Assembly: GCF_001984175.1 (NCBI RefSeq)
Contig: NZ_MTQP01000068.1
Coordinates: 124,001-188,000, forward strand
Source of the DNA: Saccharothrix sp. ALI-22-I
Lineage (GTDB): Bacteria > Actinomycetota > Actinomycetes > Mycobacteriales > Pseudonocardiaceae
Direction: 5' to 3'
DNA: 64,000 nucleotides
Part shown: one piece after another, positions 8,043-37,882 of the stretch
How the letters are laid out: each line of letters opens with the position of its first letter
Position numbering within the stretch: the first letter of the stretch is position 1
Position numbers and translations under genes: made by a program
Notes under the pieces: generated by a model
Databases searched by the model: none
Seen by the model: the letters and a program-made list of their open reading frames with translations, nothing else
Told to the model about the DNA's origin: nothing

Positions 8043-8929
8043 GCCTGTTCCTCAAGAGTGGTGCGGACGTCGGACGCCAGTTCGGGCTTGAGCAGCCCGG
8101 CGGCCTGAGCGCGCGCCGCGGTGCGGAGCGCGAGAACCCGGTATGCGGACAGGGTGTCCTGGTCGGCGAGCACCGCCAGGTGCTTGGCCACGGTGCCCGC
8201 GTCGCCGCGTGCGACCGGACCGGTGAGGGCGCGGTCGCCGTGCCGCAGGGCGTTGTCCAGCGCGGCGGACAGCAGCGGGCCGAGCATCCGCTCGGCGTCC
8301 TCGATACCGGCGCCGCGCAGCAGGTCCGCGCAGTCGGCAACCAGGGTGATCAGGTGGTTCGCGCCGTGCGCGAGGGCGGCGTGGTAGAGCGGGCGGGCGG
8401 CCTCGGGGACGCGCACCGGTTCAGCGGACATCTCCACCACCAGCGCCTCGCCCACGTTCCACGCGATCTCGTCGTCGTCGGCCGCGGTGACGCCGACCGA
8501 GCAGGCGTTCATCCGCTGCACGTCCTCGACGCGGCCGGTGAACGTCATGACCGGGTGCAGCGCCACGCACAGCGCGCCCAGCTCGGTGGCGGGCCGAAGG
8601 ACGTCCACGCCCTGCGCGCCGCTGGTGTGCACGACGATCTGCCCGGCCCGCAGCGAACCGGTGGCGACGAGGCCGCGGACCAGGCCCGCCAGCTCGTCGT
8701 CCGGCACGGCGAGCAGCACCAGGTCGGCGGAGGCGGCGACTTCCGGTGGCGGCAGCACGAGCGCGTCCGGCAGCAGGTCTTCGGCGCGGCGCAGCGAGTC
8801 GCGGGAGACGGCGGAGACGGCGCTCACGACGTGGCCCGCGCGGGTCAGCGCGGCGCCCAGCACCGAACCCACCCGGCCTGCCGAGATCACTCCCACGGCC
8901 AGCCGCGCGGGGCGGGGGGTCGCGTCCAT
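8039..8929 (-). CDS. Rossmann-like/DUF2520 oxidoreductase-like protein
   Basis: A 296-residue protein with an N-terminal NAD(P)-binding Rossmann fold ([21 protein letters not shown], about residues 12-32) and a C-terminal helical DUF2520 domain containing the conserved [17 protein letters not shown]. The fold resembles 6-phosphogluconate dehydrogenase-type and ketopantoate reductases. It heads the panC-panD-coaX operon and overlaps panC, and the same neighbours occur in mycobacteria. A role in pantoate formation (a PanE-like step) is plausible from fold and context, but I see no direct evidence for it. Confidence 0.85.
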
Positions 8930-11267: not shown

Positions 11268-11720
11268 ATGCGCATGAGAATCCACGCGTTGCCGACCGAT
11301 GTGCTGGACCGTGCCCGCAAGCTGGCGGGCACGGACGAGCACCACGAGGTGCACGTCGAATTCCCCGGCACCCCACTGCGCTGCTGCCTGCGCAAAGCCG
11401 AGGCGGGCGAGCCGCTGATCCTTTTCCGCCACACCCCCACTGCGGGCACCGGACCGTACGAGGAACTGGGTCCCGTGTTCGCGCACGCCGAACCGTGCGA
11501 CGGCCCGGCGAGCACGACGGAGTTCCCGGAAGCCTTCCGCCACGCACCCAGAACCCTCCGCGCCTACACCGCCGACGGCCGCATCCACGACGGTGAAATC
11601 GCCGAGCCGGAAACCCTCACCGAAACGGTGACAAGAGTGCTCGACGATCCCCGAGTGGCCGAAATCCAGGTGCGAAGCGTTTCCCACGGCTGCTTCCTGT
11701 TCGCCATCACCCGCGATTAA
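11268..11720 (+). CDS. DUF1203 family protein
   Basis: A 150-residue soluble protein matching the DUF1203 pattern: CRYCLR-like CCLRKAEAGEPLILF near residue 40, then GPYEELGPVFAHAEPC, and a C-terminal VRSVSHGCFLFAITRD. Conserved Cys and His residues (CC, HAEPC, HGC) could bind metal, but the function of the family is unknown. It sits between the MidA-like and NuoD-like genes on the same strand, 33 bases ahead of the latter, and probably belongs to one transcription unit with it. The start is ATG 11268, with a second ATG at 11274. Confidence 0.8.
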   Translation: MRMRIHALPTDVLDRARKLAGTDEHHEVHVEFPGTPLRCCLRKAEAGEPLILFRHTPTAGTGPYEELGPVFAHAEPCDGPASTTEFPEAFRHAPRTLRAYTADGRIHDGEIAEPETLTETVTRVLDDPRVAEIQVRSVSHGCFLFAITRD

Positions 11721-11752
11721 GAGCCGTGGGCGGGAGGTGCGAGCATGAACAG

Positions 11753-12817
11753 GTGGAGATCACCGTGGGCGTTGGCGCCGGGGCGCGGCACCTCGGGGTG
11801 GATCGGGTGGTCGATCTGGGCCCGCTGCACCCGTCGGCGCACGGCGCCTACCGACTGCGGCTGACGGTCCGGGATGACGAGGTCATCACCGCCGCCGAGC
11901 CCCTGGTCGGGCACCTGCACCGAGGCGCGGAGAAGCTGTTCGAGGTCCGCGACTACCGGCAGGTCCTCACCCTCGCCAATCGGCACGACTGGCTCGCCGC
12001 CTTCTGCAACGAACTCGCCGTCGCGCTCGCCGTGGAGCGGATGACCGGCATGGACGTCCCACTCCGCGCCCAGGCCCTGCGCGCCCTGCTGTGCGAGCTC
12101 AACCGGATCATGGCGCACCTCGTGTTCCTCACACCCCTCACCGGCGCACGCGACCGTGACGCCGTGCAGGCCGTGCTGGAGGAAGCGTCGGGCGGCCGCA
12201 TCCACTTCATGTTCAACCGGATCGGCGGCCTGCGCGAGGACGTCCCCGCCGGCTGGACCGACCGGGTCCGCGAAGTACTGTCCACTGTGGACCCCGGCGA
12301 GGCGCCGGAGGGGTTGACCGGTATCGGGGTGTTGACGCGGGACGCGGCACTCGCGTTCGGCGTCACCGGGCCGATCGGCCGGGCGTCCGGGGTGGACTTC
12401 GACCTGCGCCGCGACGACCCGCTGCCGGGCTACCGGAACCTGGACGTCCACCCCGTGGTCCGGACCGAGGGCGACGCGCTCGCCCGGGTCCGCTGCATGG
12501 TGGACGAGGTCCGCCACTCCATCGCGCTCGCCCACCAGTGCCTGGACCGGCTGCCGACCGGCCCGGTCAACCTGCGACTGCCCAAGGCGATCAAAGCGCC
12601 CGAGGGGTCGGTCTACACGTGGGTCGAGGCGCCGTTGGGCACGTCCGGCGTCCACCTGGCGTCACGCGGCGAGAAGACCCCGTGGCGGCTGAAGCTGCGG
12701 ACGCCGTCGTTCAACAACGTCCAGGCCCTGTCCGCGCTGCTGCCGGGCACCCGGGTGGCGGACCTGCCCGCGGTGCTCGGGTCGTTCGCCGTGGTCGTCG
12801 GCGACATCGACAAGTAA
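11753..12817 (+). CDS. Stand-alone NuoD-like (complex I 49-kDa) protein
   Basis: A homologue of the NADH-quinone oxidoreductase subunit D, here without the rest of the nuo operon. About 354 residues if it begins at GTG 11753 (GTG 11726 is possible). The quinone-site region reads GPLHPSAHGAYRL, keeping both His residues, and GHLHRGAEKLFEVRDY keeps the arginine that NDUFAF7 methylates in the mitochondrial protein. The quinone-contacting Tyr of the usual D-R-x-D-Y is Trp here (NRHDW). The C-terminus ends SFNNVQAL...VVGDIDK, as NuoD does. It is probably a paralogue with a changed quinone pocket rather than the core subunit. Confidence 0.85.
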   Translation: MEITVGVGAGARHLGVDRVVDLGPLHPSAHGAYRLRLTVRDDEVITAAEPLVGHLHRGAEKLFEVRDYRQVLTLANRHDWLAAFCNELAVALAVERMTGMDVPLRAQALRALLCELNRIMAHLVFLTPLTGARDRDAVQAVLEEASGGRIHFMFNRIGGLREDVPAGWTDRVREVLSTVDPGEAPEGLTGIGVLTRDAALAFGVTGPIGRASGVDFDLRRDDPLPGYRNLDVHPVVRTEGDALARVRCMVDEVRHSIALAHQCLDRLPTGPVNLRLPKAIKAPEGSVYTWVEAPLGTSGVHLASRGEKTPWRLKLRTPSFNNVQALSALLPGTRVADLPAVLGSFAVVVGDIDK

Positions 12818-32355: not shown

Positions 32356-32386
32356 GAGGGCCGGGTCAGCAACTGACCCGGCCCTC
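32356..32386 (-). terminator. Hairpin flanking the left att site
   Basis: A 14-bp stem (GAGGGCCGGGTCAG / CTGACCCGGCCCTC) with a CAA loop. It lies five bases from the displaced tRNA-Thr end and corresponds to the hairpin at 37767-37799 beside the intact tRNA, so it is probably the original tRNA-Thr terminator. Confidence 0.75.
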
Positions 32387-32390
32387 GTCC

Positions 32391-32438
32391 CGCTGAGCCG
32401 CCTATCGGAATCGAACCGATGACCTGTTCATTACGAGT
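32391..32438 (-). repeat. attL/attR: 48-bp direct repeat with displaced tRNA-Thr 3' end
   Basis: Identical to 37804-37851. It contains the 3' 43 bases of tRNA-Thr from within the anticodon loop to the discriminator base, and no 5' half follows. This is the classic mark of site-specific integration into a tRNA 3' end. Confidence 0.92.
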
Positions 32439-32472
32439 TCGTCAGTGATCGAGTCGGACACTGACGGGCGGT

Positions 32473-32512
32473 GTCGCCCCGGTCTGATCCGTACTGGTCA
32501 GACCGGGGCGAC
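32473..32512. terminator. Hairpin just inside the element
   Basis: A 15-bp perfect stem (GTCGCCCCGGTCTGA / TCAGACCGGGGCGAC) with a ten-base loop, 73 bases beyond the CYTH gene's stop. It probably ends the minus-strand cargo operon. The 411-base gene-free stretch 32174-32584 otherwise holds the att site, its terminator and the arm repeat. Confidence 0.75.
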
Positions 32513-32555
32513 TGCCGTTCCGGGCCGGTCCCTGCCGCTCGCTGATCAGGCGTCC

Positions 32556-32574
32556 GGGCACACATCGGGCACAC
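32556..32574 (+). repeat. Arm-like repeat, left end
   Basis: GGGCACACATCGGGCACAC: two GGGCACAC octamers 11 bases apart. Matches 37694-37712 at 18 of 19 bases, same orientation, 118 bases inside the att repeat. Confidence 0.65.
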
Positions 32575-32584
32575 CGGTTGGTGT

Positions 32585-33184
32585 TCAGAAGCGCAGGTCA
32601 GGGATGGTGTTCAGGTCGATGCCGTAGAGGGCGTAGACCTTGATGGTGTTCTCTCCGGTCAGCTCTTCCTCGGCGTACCCCAGCAGTGCGGCGACCCGAA
32701 CGACCTCGTCCTTCGACCCGGCTTCGATCTCGACGTAGGGCGGGATGCGCGGCCACGTGTCGATCTCGACCTGCGCGCCGTCGAGGAGGAAGCTCGTGCG
32801 CTTGGTCTCCTGGTAGGACTTCGCGGTGAACCCGAGCACGCCGAGCAGGGCGTTGGTCGTGTCGAAGTCGTCCACGCGCACCTCGGTCTCGTGGGTGCCG
32901 TCGATGGCGTCGCTGGTGATCTGCTTGACGGTCAGCGTCACCTCGTCGCCCGTGTCCCGCAGCCTGATCCACTTGGACTGGTCGCCGGGCGTGATGTCGT
33001 AGACGTAGCGGCGCATGAACCGCTCGGCGAGCTTCTGGCCGCCCTTGTCGAGGATGAGCTGTTCCATCTGCGCGGGGTCTACGTCGAGGATCTTGCCTTC
33101 GAACTCAATGGGCGCTTCGTGCTCGATGGCACTCGCGGTCGTCCTTCCGGGTTGATCGGTGATGGTCTCGACGCTATGCCGCAT
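32585..33184 (-). CDS. CYTH-domain (triphosphate tunnel) protein
   Basis: A 199-residue protein of the CYTH superfamily (class IV adenylate cyclase, thiamine triphosphatase), which binds triphosphates in an eight-stranded tunnel. The signature E-x-E-x-K is EFEGK at residues 27-31. Other tunnel charges are in WIRLRDTGDEVTLTVKQ, HETEVRVDDF, YQETKR and QVEIDTWPRIPPYVEIE. ATG at 33182-33184 overlaps the radical-SAM stop, so the two are coupled. It probably hydrolyses or cyclises a nucleotide or organic triphosphate; the substrate is unknown. Confidence 0.85.
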   Translation of the reverse strand: MRHSVETITDQPGRTTASAIEHEAPIEFEGKILDVDPAQMEQLILDKGGQKLAERFMRRYVYDITPGDQSKWIRLRDTGDEVTLTVKQITSDAIDGTHETEVRVDDFDTTNALLGVLGFTAKSYQETKRTSFLLDGAQVEIDTWPRIPPYVEIEAGSKDEVVRVAALLGYAEEELTGENTIKVYALYGIDLNTIPDLRF

Positions 33185-34256
33185 GGCGGCGGGTGAGTCG
33201 GTCGTACTCGACCTCACGCAGGGCCAGCACTTCTGCCAGCACCGGGCCGGTGAGGAAGTCGTCCAGGGTCATGCACAGGTCCATGCGTTGGATGCAGACA
33301 CCGACCTGATAGCGGCCGGTGCGGTCGTAGTAGAGCCGCACGCCGTAGAAGCCCTCTTGGCAGTCGGTGTCGTTGTTGAACCGGCATCCGGCGCAGGTCT
33401 CGGGCAGTCGGACGCGCCGGATCTGCTTGAAGTACACCCGCCGTCCGTCCGGGAGGCGGTAGGCGGTGCGTGAGCCGGACACGCCTGCGGTGATGTAGTG
33501 CGTCTCGGCGACAGCTCCGCGCTCAGCCAGGATGCGCTCGATGGCTTCCACCGACGCGGTGCCGTGATCCAGCGAGTTGAGCAGCCGGACCGACAGGTGC
33601 GGGGAGTACTCATCGAGCAGGCGGTGCACGCGCGGCGCGTGGCTGTAGTCGAGTACCACGATGTTGGCGCTGGCCTTGACCCCGTGTGCCTCGCACGCGG
33701 CGATCGAACGTTTCAGGGCGTCGATCTTGCGTTGCGCGCGATCGGCGTCGCGGTAGCGGGCGTGCTGGACCTCGGCGAGTTCGGCGGCCGTCGTGCCGAA
33801 GATCGAGAAGTTCACCCGGTCGAGGCCTGCGGCGGCACAGTCGGGCAGCACGTCCGCTCCGTGCTCACCGTTGGAGGTCATCCCGACCCGCAGACCCGCC
33901 TCGGTGGCGATCTTCGTCAGGCGCGCCACGGCGGGGTGCAGAGTCGGTTCACCGCCGGTCAAGTGCACTTCGGTCAGGTGCATCGCGTCGCGTAAGGCGG
34001 CGAGGGCGTGCCCTAACTGCTCGTTCGCGGGAACCGGTGCGGGCAGGAACGCCGCGCCGTTGGTGGCGGCGTAGATCGACACGCGCCCGCTGGGACCGGC
34101 GGTGGTGAAGTCGCCGAGTGGGCGGCGGCGGTTGTCCACCGCGACCGGTGTGCCCTCGTTGTGGCAGAACGTGCACGTCATGCCGCAGGCGTCCAGGATC
34201 TTCACGCGCAGTGTGGAGTCTCTGACGACGTGGACCGGTACACCGGGGGGAGTCAT
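33174..34256 (-). CDS. Radical SAM enzyme, MoaA-like with C-terminal Cys cluster
   Basis: A 360-residue radical SAM protein. The [4Fe-4S] motif is C24-x3-C28-x2-C31 (DACGMTCTFCHNEG), followed by TEVHLTGGEPTLHP (the GGEP SAM motif) and VNFSIFGTT. A second Cys set near the C-terminus (CAGCRFNNDTDCQEGFYGVR, then GVCIQRMDLCM) suggests an auxiliary cluster, as in MoaA or SPASM/twitch enzymes. The substrate is not known; nucleotide and peptide substrates are both possible. It lies 200 bases after the 114-aa gene, behind an inverted repeat, and overlaps the CYTH gene. ATG at 34254-34256 has only a weak ribosome site. Confidence 0.88.
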   Translation of the reverse strand: MTPPGVPVHVVRDSTLRVKILDACGMTCTFCHNEGTPVAVDNRRRPLGDFTTAGPSGRVSIYAATNGAAFLPAPVPANEQLGHALAALRDAMHLTEVHLTGGEPTLHPAVARLTKIATEAGLRVGMTSNGEHGADVLPDCAAAGLDRVNFSIFGTTAAELAEVQHARYRDADRAQRKIDALKRSIAACEAHGVKASANIVVLDYSHAPRVHRLLDEYSPHLSVRLLNSLDHGTASVEAIERILAERGAVAETHYITAGVSGSRTAYRLPDGRRVYFKQIRRVRLPETCAGCRFNNDTDCQEGFYGVRLYYDRTGRYQVGVCIQRMDLCMTLDDFLTGPVLAEVLALREVEYDRLTRRHAA

Positions 34257-34293
34257 GAGATTGGGTGCCCTTCAGGGTGTTGTGTTGGGCTGG

Positions 34294-34344
34294 GCGCGGC
34301 GGGGAACGTTGTCCGGTCGGGGCGGACGTCGTTCCCCGCCGCGC
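34294..34344 (-). promoter_or_regulatory. 15-bp inverted repeat in the radical-SAM leader
   Basis: GCGCGGCGGGGAACG and CGTTCCCCGCCGCGC are perfect 15-bp arms around a 21-base loop, 37 bases upstream of the radical-SAM start codon. It could be a terminator with read-through, an attenuator or an RNA structure hiding the next start. Confidence 0.6.
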
Positions 34345-34407
34345 TAGTGCTCCGGTGACTGGGGTGGCCGTGTGCGGGAGGGGTCCCGCCCTGCCTCACC
34401 GGAGCGG

Positions 34408-34476
34408 TCAGGTGGTCTTGCGAAGCGACACTCCGCGAATCGGATCGGGATTGGCCGGTCGAGCTATGGCGTCCAC
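34408..34476 (-). CDS. Candidate 22-residue peptide ORF
   Basis: GTG at 34474-34476 opens a 22-codon frame (VDAIARPANPDPIRGVSLRK and two more Thr) that overlaps the stop of the 114-aa gene and ends before the radical-SAM gene. It could be a precursor or signal peptide for the neighbouring radical-SAM enzyme or TPR regulator, but no Shine-Dalgarno is visible and the third-codon bias is weaker than in neighbours. It may be chance. Confidence 0.2.
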   Translation of the reverse strand: MDAIARPANPDPIRGVSLRKTT

Positions 34477-34808
34477 AGCGCGGGCGCGGACGCGACCACC
34501 AGGCAAGGGGCGAACCGCTGGGTCGGCGCGGGCAGGCTCAGCAGACCTTCGACCACGTCGGACAACGAACCAGCGCGTTCCCACACGATTCCGGGCGGCT
34601 CGTTGCCGTCCGCGCGCAACGCCATCGCGTCGGTGCTGTTGCGCACCCGGATGGCGTCGTGCCAGCCGTCCGACCAAAGCCGGTAGCCGTCCACCTGGGT
34701 GGGCACACCGTCAGCTACGTCTCGGTGGACGAACTGCCATCCCGCGTCCCTGATCGCAACCAGGCCCGCCAAGGCGGGGAACGCACGCACCGCCGCCTCG
34801 TCGCTCAT
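34464..34808 (-). CDS. Conserved actinobacterial 114-aa protein
   Basis: A 114-residue soluble protein (DAGWQFVHRDVADG, then YRLWSDGWHDAIRVRNSTDAM, IVWERAGSLSDVVEGLLSLP, and APCLVVASAPALWTP). I recall similar Trp-rich small proteins in streptomycetes but no assigned function. ATG at 34806-34808 overlaps the oxygenase stop (ATGA), indicating coupling. As the second gene of the cargo operon it could be a partner or chaperone of an enzyme there; this is inference. Confidence 0.7.
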   Translation of the reverse strand: MSDEAAVRAFPALAGLVAIRDAGWQFVHRDVADGVPTQVDGYRLWSDGWHDAIRVRNSTDAMALRADGNEPPGIVWERAGSLSDVVEGLLSLPAPTQRFAPCLVVASAPALWTP

Positions 34809-35557
34809 ACCGCAGTGCTCCGCGCTCCGGTGGGGATGCCGGTCTGGATGCCGAGGTGGGGCAGCGGGTTCCCGTTGACGCGGTGCACGACGCGGTGCCC
34901 GCTGAAAGCCCTTCTGCCGTGCAGCCATCGGTGGTTGTCGAGGATGTAGCCCTGTCCGGCGGTCAGGTCCAACTCGATTGCGTGTCGGTCAATCGTCGCT
35001 CGCAGCGTCGGCAGCCATCGGCTCACCTCCGGTGAGAACTGGGCGAGATCGTCCATGCGCAGCCTGACGGTGACCTGTCGTTCGGCGTCCTCGGAGAAGA
35101 TCGCTCCCAAGTGTCCGGATGCTCCACCGAACAGGACCGACCGTGGAGCGCACAGCGCTGCCAGTGCCTCGGGTTCAGCTTCGGCAAGATCGAGGTAGAC
35201 GGACTGGCCGTCGATCAGCACGCACTCACCACCGCTCGTCGCCGGTCGCGAGCAGCTCAACATCAGCAGCGCGGGCGGGTGAGCAACTCCCGAGCGGTCG
35301 GTGTGCGGGTCAAGCGCGCACGCGCTGAACCCGGCGAACCCACTGGGCGCGGCAGGACCCAGGTCAACGAGCGTGGTCACACCGTCCGACGCGCTGTCTC
35401 TGTGCGGCACCACGGTCGCGACCGAGCGAGCAAGCCGGAGCAGGTCCGCCGAGTCGGCGAGACCATCCACCAGGACCAGACCGCGACGAGCGAGCACATC
35501 CACCAGGCCGAGCGCGTCGTCAGCCGCGACGCGGCAGCCCGCGAAGGGGTCGTTCAT
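34805..35557 (-). CDS. TauD/TfdA-type 2-oxoglutarate/Fe(II) oxygenase
   Basis: A 250-residue oxygenase with the facial triad visible: HTD at residues 85-87 and the distal His in NHRWLHGRRAF (H213), with a nearby Arg to bind 2-oxoglutarate. It resembles TauD/clavaminate-synthase-like enzymes that hydroxylate or desaturate amino acids and small molecules. ATG at 35555-35557 has GGAGG eight bases upstream. First gene of the minus-strand cargo operon, divergent from the NUDIX gene. The substrate is unknown. Confidence 0.87.
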   Translation of the reverse strand: MNDPFAGCRVAADDALGLVDVLARRGLVLVDGLADSADLLRLARSVATVVPHRDSASDGVTTLVDLGPAAPSGFAGFSACALDPHTDRSGVAHPPALLMLSCSRPATSGGECVLIDGQSVYLDLAEAEPEALAALCAPRSVLFGGASGHLGAIFSEDAERQVTVRLRMDDLAQFSPEVSRWLPTLRATIDRHAIELDLTAGQGYILDNHRWLHGRRAFSGHRVVHRVNGNPLPHLGIQTGIPTGARSTAV

Positions 35558-35718
35558 CGTCCCTACCTCCCGAAACGGTCGTCTCGTGAGGATCATGGGA
35601 GCGCGATTCGACTCAGAACGTCCAGTGACAAGCTGTCAACACAGCGTCGCCGGTATTCGTATGTCTCGGTGCTACGTTGCAGGTGAGCAGCCATCCGCCA
35701 CTCCGGAGGTCATCGCTG
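35558..35718. promoter_or_regulatory. Divergent promoter region of the element
   Basis: The 161-base gap between the oxygenase and NUDIX genes. It contains TGACA-AGC-TGTCA (35626-35638), a short inverted repeat whose minus strand includes a TTGACA -35-like box. It is a likely operator for the element's HTH/TPR regulator; this is inferred from position. Confidence 0.5.
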
Positions 35719-36141
35719 ATGGACCAGTTCGTCTACGCCGTCTCGATCAAGGGCGTGGTGGTGCGCGATGGCAGAGTGCTGCTGCTGAAGAACGAGCGCG
35801 AGGAGTGGGAGCTACCGGGAGGCCGGATCGAGCCCGGCGAGACGCCCGAGGAGTGCGTGGCGCGGGAGATCACCGAGGAAACGCAGTGGAAGGTGACCAC
35901 CGGCCCGATCCTCGACACGTGGATGTACTACATCAACGTGGCGGAGAAGAACGTGTTCATCGTGACCTACGGCTGTTACCCGGACGGTGACGCTGAGCCC
36001 GTGCTCTCCCACGAGCACAAGGAAGTCGGTCTGTTCACCGAGTCCGATGTGCGCGACCTGAACATGCCGGACGGGTACAAGCGCTCGATCGCGAGTTGGT
36101 TCGCGTATTTGCGCGAGACCGACCGGGAACTGATCCGGTAG
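35719..36141 (+). CDS. NUDIX hydrolase
   Basis: A 140-residue NUDIX protein. The Nudix box is GGRIEPGETPEECVAREITEET, matching G-x5-E-x7-R-E-x2-E-E with Thr in place of the usual Gly at its end. Members cleave nucleoside diphosphates linked to another group. ATG 35719 has GGAGGT eight bases upstream. It precedes the regulator gene by six bases, so the two form an operon. The substrate is not known; with the CYTH protein it makes two phosphohydrolases in one small element. Confidence 0.92.
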   Translation: MDQFVYAVSIKGVVVRDGRVLLLKNEREEWELPGGRIEPGETPEECVAREITEETQWKVTTGPILDTWMYYINVAEKNVFIVTYGCYPDGDAEPVLSHEHKEVGLFTESDVRDLNMPDGYKRSIASWFAYLRETDRELIR

Positions 36142-36147
36142 GCGCTC

Positions 36148-37416
36148 ATGACGGGTGGACGATGCGAGGCGTGCGGGGCCGAGCTGAGCAGGCTGGCCAT
36201 CGAGCCCATCTGCCCGACGTGCCACGCCAGCGCACGTCACGCACCGCCCGCCATGCCAGCGCGCCCGCTGACCCCGGCGGTCTGGCTGTGGTCGGCTCCC
36301 GAGGCCGCAACCGCCCTACGGAGTCGTGACCTGGCGACGATCCTGCGCCTGTACCGCCGGTTGAACCAGCTCAGTCAGGAACGGCTGGCCACGCTGCTCG
36401 ACTATGACAAGACCTACGTGTCGATGATCGAGACCGGTCGGCGCACCATCAGCGATGTGGCCACGCGGCGCCACATCGCGCGCGTGCTCGGCCTGCCGAT
36501 GCACGTGCTCGGCGTGACCGACAACGACGATGCCGACTTCGCCGCCATGATCCAGTTCGGCGACTCGACCATCCGCCTGGCCGAGATCGCCCGCCAGGCA
36601 GGGCGGGCCGTCGATGCGGTCAACGAGCTGTGGCCACTCGTCGCCAGGTTGGAGGCGCGCGCCGCCGAAGGCCGCGCCGAACGCGACACCTTGATCCTGC
36701 TCGGCCAAGGCAGAGCGGCGCTGGGCGTGTCCCTGGGGACCGTGCTGCCCGAGGAACGCTTGTCCGCAGCGGCACGGTGGACCGGAAAGGCGCTGGCAGT
36801 GGCCGAGCGGCTGGGCGATTCCACGTTCCTGGCGCACGCACTGCGAATGCACGGCAACGAACTGCGCAAGGCCGATCACATCGGCGCGGCCGTCGCCCGC
36901 CTCGGCCGAGCAGTGGCCACGTCCGACGACCAGGAAGGCCGAGGAACTGCGTTCGCGCTGCTCGCTCGGGCAGCGGGCGAGCAAGGCAACCCCGACCTGT
37001 TCGATCGCGCGATCAGCGGTTACCGCGATCTTCTCGACAGCGGGAATGCACGCGGGATGCTGTTCAACCCGTTCACCTTCCGAGAGATCCAGCTACGCGG
37101 CCTGATCTCGACCGGTCGCGCCGCCGAAGCCGTGCGCGTCATGCAGACCGACCAGCCCAACGCGGTGCCGGTCGCACCGCAGTGGCACATCATCGAACGC
37201 GTGACCGCCGGGCAAGTGCTGCTCGCTGCCCGGCAACGAGACGGCGCAGCGGATGCACTTCGGGCAGCGCTGATAGCCTCCGAGACGCACCGCCTGCCGC
37301 ACCAGATTCAGCGGACCATCCGAGCGGCCGATGACGCCGGACTCGCCGAGATCAGCGCCGATGGCCGTGCCGCTCTCCAACGGCTGAACGATCAGCTCGC
37401 GCCGTCTCGCGGTTAG
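36148..37416 (+). CDS. XRE-family regulator with zinc ribbon and TPR-like domain
   Basis: A 422-residue regulator. The N-terminus has a zinc ribbon (C6-x2-C9-x12-C22-x2-C25). A helix-turn-helix follows (about residues 65-120, LSQERLATLLDYDKTYVSMIETGRR is in this region), then about 290 residues of helical repeats rich in Ala, resembling TPR sensor domains. In RRNPP regulators of Firmicutes such a domain binds a peptide; in actinomycetes the ligand is usually unknown. It is a likely controller of both cargo operons. Confidence 0.85.
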   Translation: MTGGRCEACGAELSRLAIEPICPTCHASARHAPPAMPARPLTPAVWLWSAPEAATALRSRDLATILRLYRRLNQLSQERLATLLDYDKTYVSMIETGRRTISDVATRRHIARVLGLPMHVLGVTDNDDADFAAMIQFGDSTIRLAEIARQAGRAVDAVNELWPLVARLEARAAEGRAERDTLILLGQGRAALGVSLGTVLPEERLSAAARWTGKALAVAERLGDSTFLAHALRMHGNELRKADHIGAAVARLGRAVATSDDQEGRGTAFALLARAAGEQGNPDLFDRAISGYRDLLDSGNARGMLFNPFTFREIQLRGLISTGRAAEAVRVMQTDQPNAVPVAPQWHIIERVTAGQVLLAARQRDGAADALRAALIASETHRLPHQIQRTIRAADDAGLAEISADGRAALQRLNDQLAPSRG

Positions 37417-37453
37417 CCAAAGTCTGGGAGTTCCGTACACACAGCGAGCTGCT

Positions 37454-37789
37454 ATGACGTACCGGTCGAGGAAACGACCGCCAGGGGGTCGCCCCCCACC
37501 GCTGGTCAGAGCTGCTCTCGTGCGCGCGGGAGCGCTGGCGGCGGGCGCGGACATGAAGACGGTTCAAGAGATGCTCGGCCACTCGTCCATCACGATCACC
37601 TCGGACATCTACACGAGCGTGCTGCCCGAGGTCGCCCGAAAGGCTGCCGAGGCAGCCGCCAGCCTCGTCCCTCGCCGGTCCACCGGTACCGATGGGCACA
37701 CTTCGGGCACACAGCAAGCCCAAGTCAGCTCAGTGCTTCACCTGGTGCAAGGCCCTGAAAAGGAAGAAGGACCAGGTCAGAAGCACTGA
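37454..37789 (+). pseudogene. Tyrosine integrase, C-terminal fragment
   Basis: Only the end of a phage-type integrase is left: GADMKTVQEMLGHSSITITSD contains the G-H of the second catalytic box, and DIYTSVLPEVA carries the catalytic Tyr. The N-terminal arm-binding and core domains and the first catalytic Arg are absent; the short upstream part (LVRAALVRAGALAAG) looks like a degraded H-x-x-R region. It lies beside the tRNA-Thr att site as in pSAM2-like elements. It cannot be active by itself. Confidence 0.85.
37694..37712 (+). repeat. Arm-like repeat, right end
   Basis: GGGCACACTTCGGGCACAC, 18 of 19 bases identical to 32556-32574 and in the same orientation, 92 bases inside the right att repeat. 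It overlaps the end of the integrase fragment. Confidence 0.65.
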
Positions 37790-37799
37790 CCTGGTCCTT
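37767..37799 (-). terminator. tRNA-Thr terminator carried by the element
   Basis: A 14-bp stem (AAGGACCAGGTCAG / CTGACCTGGTCCTT) with an AAGCA loop, ten bases from the tRNA 3' end. A competing hairpin is possible: TCAGTGCTTC at 37730-37739 is the exact complement of GAAGCACTGA at 37780-37789. Confidence 0.75.
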
Positions 37800-37803
37800 A
37801 TCT

Positions 37804-37851
37804 CGCTGAGCCGCCTATCGGAATCGAACCGATGACCTGTTCATTACGAGT
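37804..37851 (-). repeat. Second att repeat, inside the intact tRNA-Thr
   Basis: 48 bases identical to 32391-32438, from the anticodon loop through the 3' end of the tRNA and five bases beyond. Confidence 0.92.
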
Positions 37852-37882
37852 GAACCGCTCTGGCCGACTGAGCTAAGGCGGC
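37809..37882 (-). tRNA. tRNA-Thr (anticodon CGT)
   Basis: On the minus strand a full cloverleaf is present: acceptor GCCGCCT/AGGCGGC, D arm GCTC...GAGC, anticodon stem GTTCA/TGAAC with loop CTCGTAA (anticodon CGT, Thr), T arm ATCGG-TTCGATT-CCGAT and discriminator T. The CCA is not encoded. Its 3' half is now supplied by the inserted element. Confidence 0.95.

Follow-up and report, generated by a model that had tools for sequence, protein, structure and literature searches.

An apparently disarmed integrative element at a tRNA-Thr(CGT) gene of Saccharothrix sp. ALI-22-I and its conserved payload

Actinomycete integrative and conjugative elements (AICEs) are defined by an integrase, a replication protein (Rep) and a transfer protein (Tra); integrases of the pSE211 type use a tRNA-Thr gene, and nud, xre and mdp genes occur in pMEA100, pSE211 and Sco5349 (consulted part of PMC3218068). 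Cis-mobilizable elements (CIMEs) are defined in the consulted part of PMC5704250, and a traB-less remnant at an AICE accretion site of Streptomyces is another relic between direct repeats at its insertion site (PMC9513070, in the part consulted). Here we analyse a 64-kb stretch of Saccharothrix sp. ALI-22-I (NZ_MTQP01000068.1, positions 124,001-188,000), hereafter the window, on which all unprefixed coordinates are based, and in which a 5.4-kb insert lies at a tRNA-Thr(CGT) gene. Comparison with its relatives indicates, with a probability of about 0.9, that this insert is a 9-11-kb tRNA-Thr(CGT) element disarmed by an internal deletion that left its attachment (att) sites and a payload, the latter being kept by selection and presumably acting on a nucleotide-type metabolite.

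The insert is bounded by an exact 48-bp direct repeat (32391-32438 and 37804-37851, spacing 5413 bp). One intact tRNA-Thr(CGT) gene is called by ARAGORN, on the right side (37808-37882, minus strand), so that the repeat spans the tRNA from the anticodon loop through its 3' end plus four bases, and the right copy lies inside the reconstituted gene, as both repeat and genome searches indicate. The initial annotation of this locus, which had equated the repeat with the 3' part of tRNA-Thr, placed the intact gene on the right and taken the left copy for a displaced tRNA fragment, is borne out on each count. The orientation of the insert fits integration at a tRNA 3' end, in which the new 3' half and terminator would be supplied by the element and the old half displaced; the left copy (32391-32438), traced by repeat search, genome search and junction alignment, would be that old half. 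The repeat alignment lengthens to 67 bp at 93% identity (starts 32372 and 37785) because a terminator-like hairpin is present at both copies. The left hairpin (32357-32385, minus strand; read by eye, the extended repeat running over it) would have belonged to the tRNA-Thr gene before the insertion and now follows the displaced half. Searched against the genome of the same strain, the 67-bp repeat matched these two places only, and a longer query added one tRNA-like place at 77% identity; the concern that the repeat might be common elsewhere can be set aside. An integrase fragment had also been placed on the right: the frame at 37529-37789 (plus strand) is indeed a C-terminal remnant, its positions 37529-37783 aligning at 74% identity with a 506-aa tyrosine recombinase over residues 421-505 of the latter.

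Occupancy of the site was surveyed in 25 genomes of the genus, and the tRNA was located in all of them. The empty site predicted by the annotation exists: in 12 genomes the left-flank homology stops 62-201 bp from the tRNA 3' end, and an artificial join of 32438 to 37852 aligned through the site in all four of these 12 loci that were tried. A second att copy and related element material are found in four genomes (the window, G206, G274 and G172), while in G195 the element is present at tRNA-Thr and the second att copy was not found. A different element of 11.4 kb lies at the same tRNA-Thr(CGT) in G283 (L137:2263-13690, between identical 45-bp repeats), four genomes have 1.1-2.2 kb between flank and tRNA (G292, G159, G224 and G143), and the flanks barely match in G059, G021 and G240. 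The bearers are scattered on a tree of the flanking host gene, with three changes for four bearers among 17 labelled rows (the row of the bearer G274 is short). A plain duplication of the tRNA, or a chance repeat with no insertion behind it, would account for the repeat itself and nothing further; its probability is negligible, as it is ruled out by the empty sites, by fuller integrase-bearing copies at the same junction and by another insertion site that carries a repeat of its own. An integrated element in tRNA-Thr(CGT), as annotated, is supported by repeats, empty sites and fuller relatives together.

The fullest account of the missing parts comes from Saccharothrix sp. S26 (G206; L034/L139), in which a colinear 10,761-bp element occupies the same tRNA. 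Between its helix-turn-helix (HTH) gene and the tRNA are encoded a 283-aa protein, an AAA_25 helicase with a match to a phage polymerase/primase family, a 124-aa protein, an excisionase-like HTH_17 protein (73 aa; 23.1 bits against a Pfam cut-off of 27), an XRE protein and the 506-aa integrase. A colinear 9,169-bp copy from another genus (G156), with 52-bp repeats at 100% identity, also has a full-length integrase and is without the radical SAM and CYTH genes. Relative to G206, about 3.9 kb are missing from the window at the junction 37530-37549, namely the AAA_25 helicase, HTH_17, XRE and integrase residues 1-420, and another gap, of about 1.3 kb, is found around 37406-37428. Overlapping BLAST ends at the junction gave the appearance of 18 bp of exact microhomology, which is refuted by the letters themselves: there is only a short, imperfect GC-rich similarity. 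The window is without replication-type and recombination genes because of this internal deletion, and its element is, on this comparison, an internally deleted relative of the 9-11-kb elements, not a naturally minimal one. Small size and missing genes had been put forward as marks of a distinct kind of element. For the replication and recombination genes this claim falls, as G206 (10.8 kb) and G156 (9.2 kb) have them; the missing transfer gene does set the family apart from canonical AICEs, since no FtsK/TraB was found in G206, G255 or G292.

In the history that we propose, a 9-11-kb element inserted by its own tyrosine integrase into the 3' half of tRNA-Thr(CGT), substituting its own copy and terminator, as repeats, empty sites and fuller relatives show. 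Comparison with those relatives shows that an internal deletion then took out the helicase and the genes for the XRE repressor and the excisionase-like protein, along with most of the integrase; both att sites and the payload stayed in place. The disarmed copy should be unable to excise by itself, because its own recombinase is lost and no close integrase was found elsewhere in its genome (none above 33% identity at E 1e-10). It is possible, though we do not favour it, that the relic is still mobile as a CIME, its att sites being kept so that an incoming relative supplying integrase and excisionase could excise or carry it. The two att copies of the window match exactly over 48 bp, and identity between the copies is 100%, 100%, 99% and 97% for the disarmed elements of G204, G114, G182 and G238, fuller relatives exist within the genus, and tandem transfer of a CIME with an integrative and conjugative element is described in other bacteria (consulted part of PMC5704250). 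However, the same genome offers no such integrase, repeat identity is only 86-88% in G172 and G274, four members showed no repeat, and no circular or empty form of the window copy was seen.

Set beside pSE211/pMEA100-type AICEs by description (consulted part of PMC3218068), the family is alike in being an actinobacterial element with a tyrosine integrase. It differs in that its int gene points away from the excisionase-like gene, that the fuller relatives tested are without Tra, and that AAA_25 stands in place of RepSA, RepAM or Prim-Pol. The window itself has only residues 421-505 of the integrase (full length in G206 and G156), none of the three replication proteins was found among the seven window proteins scanned (G206 has AAA_25), and no FtsK/TraB domain (PF01580) was found inside the elements of the window, G206, G255 and G292, the nearest match in G292 (C31:15232-15504) lying outside its element. 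As no FtsK/TraB is found in the fuller copies tested, the published AICE definition fails and a canonical AICE was rejected. The window copy keeps both att sites, at the tRNA 3' end, and is without integration and transfer genes (past presence of the latter is not implied); judged by these features it is CIME-like (PMC5704250, in the part consulted), with the difference that no FtsK-type transfer gene occurs in the fuller relatives tested. The traB-less remnant mentioned above differs in its Streptomyces host, and conservation of its payload is not stated in the consulted part of PMC9513070. No relaxase appeared among the Pfam matches of the proteins scanned, no search having been aimed at oriT (origin of transfer) or relaxase. 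The window element is thus best classed as a disarmed, CIME-like member of a family of small, tRNA-bounded elements that, where tested, falls outside the AICE definition.

Whether the fuller relatives are phage satellites instead of conjugative-type elements bears on the same classification, and we consider it doubtful. Their integrase and XRE genes are oriented divergently to HTH_17 and to a primase/helicase-like gene whose product matches a phage family, the elements tested have no FtsK/TraB, and the NUDIX protein matches a family labelled as phage portal, but over the NUDIX-domain-like part. A related 7.8-kb element, moreover, occurs also as tandem-unit contigs: G069 has this more distant relative (helicase 54%) integrated at tRNA-Thr(TGT), where a 45-bp repeat is present (L167:3635-11479), and two further contigs of that genome (L165 and L166) consist of 7,800-bp tandem units at 99.9-100% identity, as a circular or tandem molecule outside the chromosome would give or, alternatively, an assembly artefact. 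Against satellites speak the lack of a known helper phage and the fact that no packaging or helper-redirecting gene was recognised by Pfam or PHROGs in the proteins scanned, among which the 283-aa and 124-aa proteins had no match; orf3 was outside the PHROGs scan. The 7.8-kb element of G069 also carries a NUDIX gene and an XRE-type regulator.

Disarming recurs in the relatives. We compared 28 loci besides the window, drawn from 27 of the 43 other genomes with a match to the HTH gene and from G172; similarity is lower (55-66%) in most of the 16 HTH-match genomes that were not included, some of their partial matches exceeding this. Twelve of the 28 loci lie at tRNA-Thr(CGT) (13 with the window), three (G255, G305 and G292) at tRNA-Arg(ACG) or at a 3' end nearly identical to its own, and 13 at neither. 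In this last group a tRNA-Ala follows shortly after the HTH gene of G094, and G193 and G052 show direct repeats at which no tRNA was called. At tRNA-Thr(CGT) the integrase is full length in two members (G206 and G156) and truncated or absent in 11. Remnants cover residues 421-505 in the window, 455-506 in G274, 118-506 in G195, 378-504 in G204, 444-504 in G182, 461-495 in G238, 320-504 in G170 and 295-495 in G114; no integrase was found in the G172, G272 and G147 members. A second att copy is seen in nine of the 13, window included. NUDIX was matched in all 28 loci, as was TauD (partial in G172 and G238), the HTH gene is partial in G172, and orf3 was matched in 15. The radical SAM-CYTH pair is present in five element members, counting the window, and in G195 its stretch is missing (L138:3963-4198), with conserved sequence on both sides. 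On a tree of the HTH protein the intact or disarmed label changes at least four times by reversible parsimony, and more often if the integrase can only be lost. By this comparison the element family is often disarmed, TauD and NUDIX-HTH mostly remaining. In Saccharothrix deserti (G292) the helicase and integrase align in pieces and may be broken too.

Several points weigh against this reading. Because the HTH gene served to pick most of the 28 loci, finding it there is not independent. As 10 of the 25 inner forks of the HTH tree are weak, and the differing end points of the integrase could reflect successive erosion instead of separate events, the number of disarming events is uncertain. A second att copy was not seen in G195, G170, G272 and G147. 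Finally, the annotation was to be doubted if related strains had the same genes and no tRNA boundary, and such loci do exist: in 13 of 28 the TauD-NUDIX-HTH block has neither tRNA-Thr nor tRNA-Arg at its end, so that the block may spread by other routes. These loci argue against a tRNA boundary being a necessity for the gene block; of the others, 12 have this very tRNA and three a tRNA-Arg.

The payload consists of six genes, all open frames, in two divergent blocks followed by the integrase C-terminus. On the minus strand lie a CYTH (triphosphate-tunnel) gene of uncertain start (32585-33217), a gene for a 360-aa, MoaA-like radical SAM protein recognised by profile matches and alignment (33174-34256), the small orf3 (34464-34808), whose start overlaps the stop of the next gene by ATGA, and the gene for a TauD/TfdA-type Fe(II)/2-oxoglutarate dioxygenase (34805-35596; Pfam TauD, 5e-25). 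On the plus strand are a NUDIX hydrolase gene (35677-36141, likely start ATG 35719; Pfam NUDIX, 3e-19) and that of a 422-aa regulator (36148-37416) whose HTH, residues 62-117, matches Pfam HTH_31, with a weak NsdA-family match below cut-off. The intergenic region between the blocks (35597-35718) presumably holds the promoters, and we propose that the HTH protein would control the payload from there. The ratio of nonsynonymous to synonymous substitution rates (dN/dS) is 0.12-0.33 in 27 pairwise gene comparisons with five relatives, of which S. algeriensis is without most of orf3 and G195 without radical SAM and CYTH. These low ratios, and the fact that most disarmed copies still have TauD, NUDIX and HTH, suggest that selection would keep a payload of TauD-orf3 divergent from NUDIX-HTH, to which some members add a radical SAM-CYTH pair beside the far att site. 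It counts against this that pairwise dN/dS blends the periods before and after the deletion, so that selection on the disarmed copy is not isolated. The dS values to the five relatives are uneven, at about 0.5-0.75 for TauD and HTH and 0.18-0.38 for NUDIX, radical SAM and CYTH, a hint that the genes of 32585-37416 were exchanged in mosaic fashion.

One comparison for what such a payload might do for its host is pSAM2, a TraB-type conjugative element. An immunity island is conceivable, in which NUDIX and HTH would block entry or establishment of related elements, much as Pif does for pSAM2, helped by the occupied tRNA site. NUDIX genes are common in AICEs and several share a nud-xre pair, the NUDIX protein Pif gives pSAM2 its conjugal immunity (consulted part of PMC3218068), and in our set NUDIX is matched at every one of the 28 loci, disarmed ones included. 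Yet no TraB is found in this element family where tested, and TauD, which is also kept, has no place in such a model, which we regard as unlikely. In PADLOC, whose models come without score cut-offs, the NUDIX proteins match the candidate family PDC-S07 (2e-16 and 2e-12) and the HTH proteins match control proteins; no complete defence system was seen among the matches, the neighbourhoods not having been searched systematically for defence genes.

Evidence for recent transfer is mixed, as far as nucleotide and protein identities can tell. In G255 and G292 the same payload lies at tRNA-Arg with an integrase 62-63% identical, whereas the matched XRE and helicase parts reach 84-96% (in G255, integrase 62%, AAA_25 96% and the matched XRE part, residues 166-232, 93%); low integrase against high XRE and helicase identity implies that the integration module was exchanged. 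In G305, also at tRNA-Arg, the figures are 61% for the integrase and 43% for the helicase. Compared with S. algeriensis, the window DNA is 89% identical over CYTH-radical SAM and 77-80% over the flanking genes. On the other side of the balance, the TauD-HTH stretch stands at 82%, leaving only CYTH-radical SAM clearly above the flanks, and element and flank are alike in identity to G206 (84-86%), so that no transfer signal arises from that comparison.

Both proteins of the radical SAM-CYTH pair have strongly conserved residues. In an alignment of 39 radical SAM proteins (the window and 38 of 72 loci, L065 being dropped for stops and the rest left out by choice) C24, C28, C31, C288, C299 and C321 are invariant and C291 is nearly so; E38, E40 and K42 of the CYTH protein are invariant in 21 rows (the window and 20 loci). 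The latter belongs to the CYTH superfamily, with 31.5 bits against a Pfam cut-off of 23.2 and an intact ExExK, and its nearest solved sequence is the archaeal triphosphate tunnel metalloenzyme Saci_0718 (7ns8), with which, as with CyaB, it shares the fold and the ExExK residues; it differs from CyaB adenylate cyclase proper, which was rejected at 33.9 bits against a cut-off of 57.95. The solved sequences nearest to the radical SAM protein are the radical SAM protein 8wm2, MoaA and cytosylglucuronate decarboxylase, the match to MoaA 1tv7 (E 1e-12) being second to 8wm2 and ending before the C-terminal part of 1tv7. It is like MoaA (GTP 3',8-cyclase) and prokaryotic viperin in its radical SAM fold, and MoaA models are its best NCBIfam matches, but it is paired with CYTH and falls far below both families' cut-offs: MoaA proper was rejected at 63.4, 50.9 and 47.3 bits (cut-offs 325, 284 and 231), and viperin proper at 39.3 bits (cut-off 180). 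We infer that the pair carries out nucleotide chemistry, product unspecified, a reading that draws on the folds and on a minority of loci. Radical SAM and CYTH would make or convert a nucleotide-type metabolite, and NUDIX and TauD would trim or use it.

A pattern-based scan of GTDB-based contigs for the radical SAM protein returned 72 loci. All 72 have an adjoining CYTH gene in the same orientation, downstream in 66 and upstream in 6; in 67 the alignment ends of the two genes are within 100 bp of each other. A whole-genome search of one family found the protein in 27 of 297 genomes, giving, besides the window's, 29 loci with short flanks (L004-L032), some of which overlap the 72. Hosts of the pair include Actinomycetota, Thermoactinomycetaceae and three Saccharibacteria bins (L093, L098 and L101), two of the latter, when placed in the tree, having very long branches. 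Open reading frames (ORFs) of an XRE-type cluster occur up to 3 kb upstream of the pair in 49 of 72 loci, counted by sequence cluster with only some members checked against Pfam. AAA_17/AAA_18 and guanylate-kinase-like genes directly adjoin the pair in L093 and L101; in Kribbella (L059 and L095, one of the two being scanned for each family) it has near it a gene resembling cytidine deaminase, one for a RibD_C reductase and one for an XRE-like protein whose SLOG match is weak and below threshold.

Other counts tell against a fixed pairing or a nucleotide role. CYTH stands beside radical SAM in 25 of the 29 short-flank loci and is not shown in four. A tally of 132 neighbouring ORFs, out of 210 picked (17 loci left out whole, plus some single ORFs), is led by HTH_31 with 20, HATPase_c_2 with 11 and TPR_2 with 10, NUDIX having 8, and kinases are absent from the 25 top families shown. 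A viperin-like antiviral module we judge decidedly improbable: the PADLOC pVip model matches at E 5e-14, nucleotide-kinase-type genes adjoin the pair in the two Saccharibacteria loci and PADLOC has a kinase-associated viperin model, and the pair is carried on mobile elements, but MoaA models score higher than the viperin model, which is missed by a wide margin (39 bits against 180), and the stable partner is CYTH, not a kinase.

The pair is widespread and apparently unstudied. Most subscription papers being outside the search, no paper was found that names radical SAM with a CYTH domain or with class IV adenylate cyclase; for a gene cluster of a tunnel enzyme and radical SAM, the matches listed, which are not a full check, included none with the term triphosphate tunnel metalloenzyme, and for the CHNEG motif and 8wm2 only unrelated papers were among the matches listed. 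We tentatively suggest, as a possibility short of an expectation, that the pair is an undescribed two-enzyme system for a modified nucleotide (a signal, an antimetabolite or an antiviral chain terminator), spread, in part by mobile elements, among Actinomycetota, Thermoactinomycetaceae and Saccharibacteria, and that the element payload repeatedly outlives its mobility genes, tRNA-Thr(CGT) being a site of domestication. At one tRNA gene, across several genera of one family, a natural series of empty, fuller, disarmed and nearly vanished states is available, on which it can be tested why small integrative elements that have lost their mobility still retain their payloads; the pair itself offers a small, conserved and defined target for enzymology, some of its neighbours pointing to nucleotides.

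Near the ends of the window element, an att-proximal block (32475-32574) is kept in G172 and G195, relatives without the neighbouring genes, and could possibly contain integrase arm sites. Paired GGGCACAC motifs, noticed by eye close to both ends (32545-32580 and 37690-37715), are possibly arm sites as well.

Searches for the radical SAM protein in plasmid and phage records gave no match at the limits used, and four IMG/VR contigs have one. A repeat screen around the pair in the 72 loci found a repeat overlapping a called tRNA in L034 only, a tRNA-Arg-type repeat without a called tRNA in L033, and repeats without a tRNA in L039, L042, L043 and L047; the repeat of L035 (87.5%) is below the identity limit of the screen. 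In L039 (Nocardia aurantia) an 84-bp repeat at 88% identity (8279-8362 and 11807-11889) surrounds NUDIX, XRE, radical SAM and CYTH, resembling a minimal moved cassette. In L047, from an actinomycete bin, a 91-bp repeat at 96% identity with an internal palindrome (8361-8451 and 11674-11764) flanks XRE-radical SAM-CYTH. The IMG/VR viral contig L150 appears, judging by its length, identical to a 24,676-bp contig of Thermoactinomyces daqus that carries the pair (L050).

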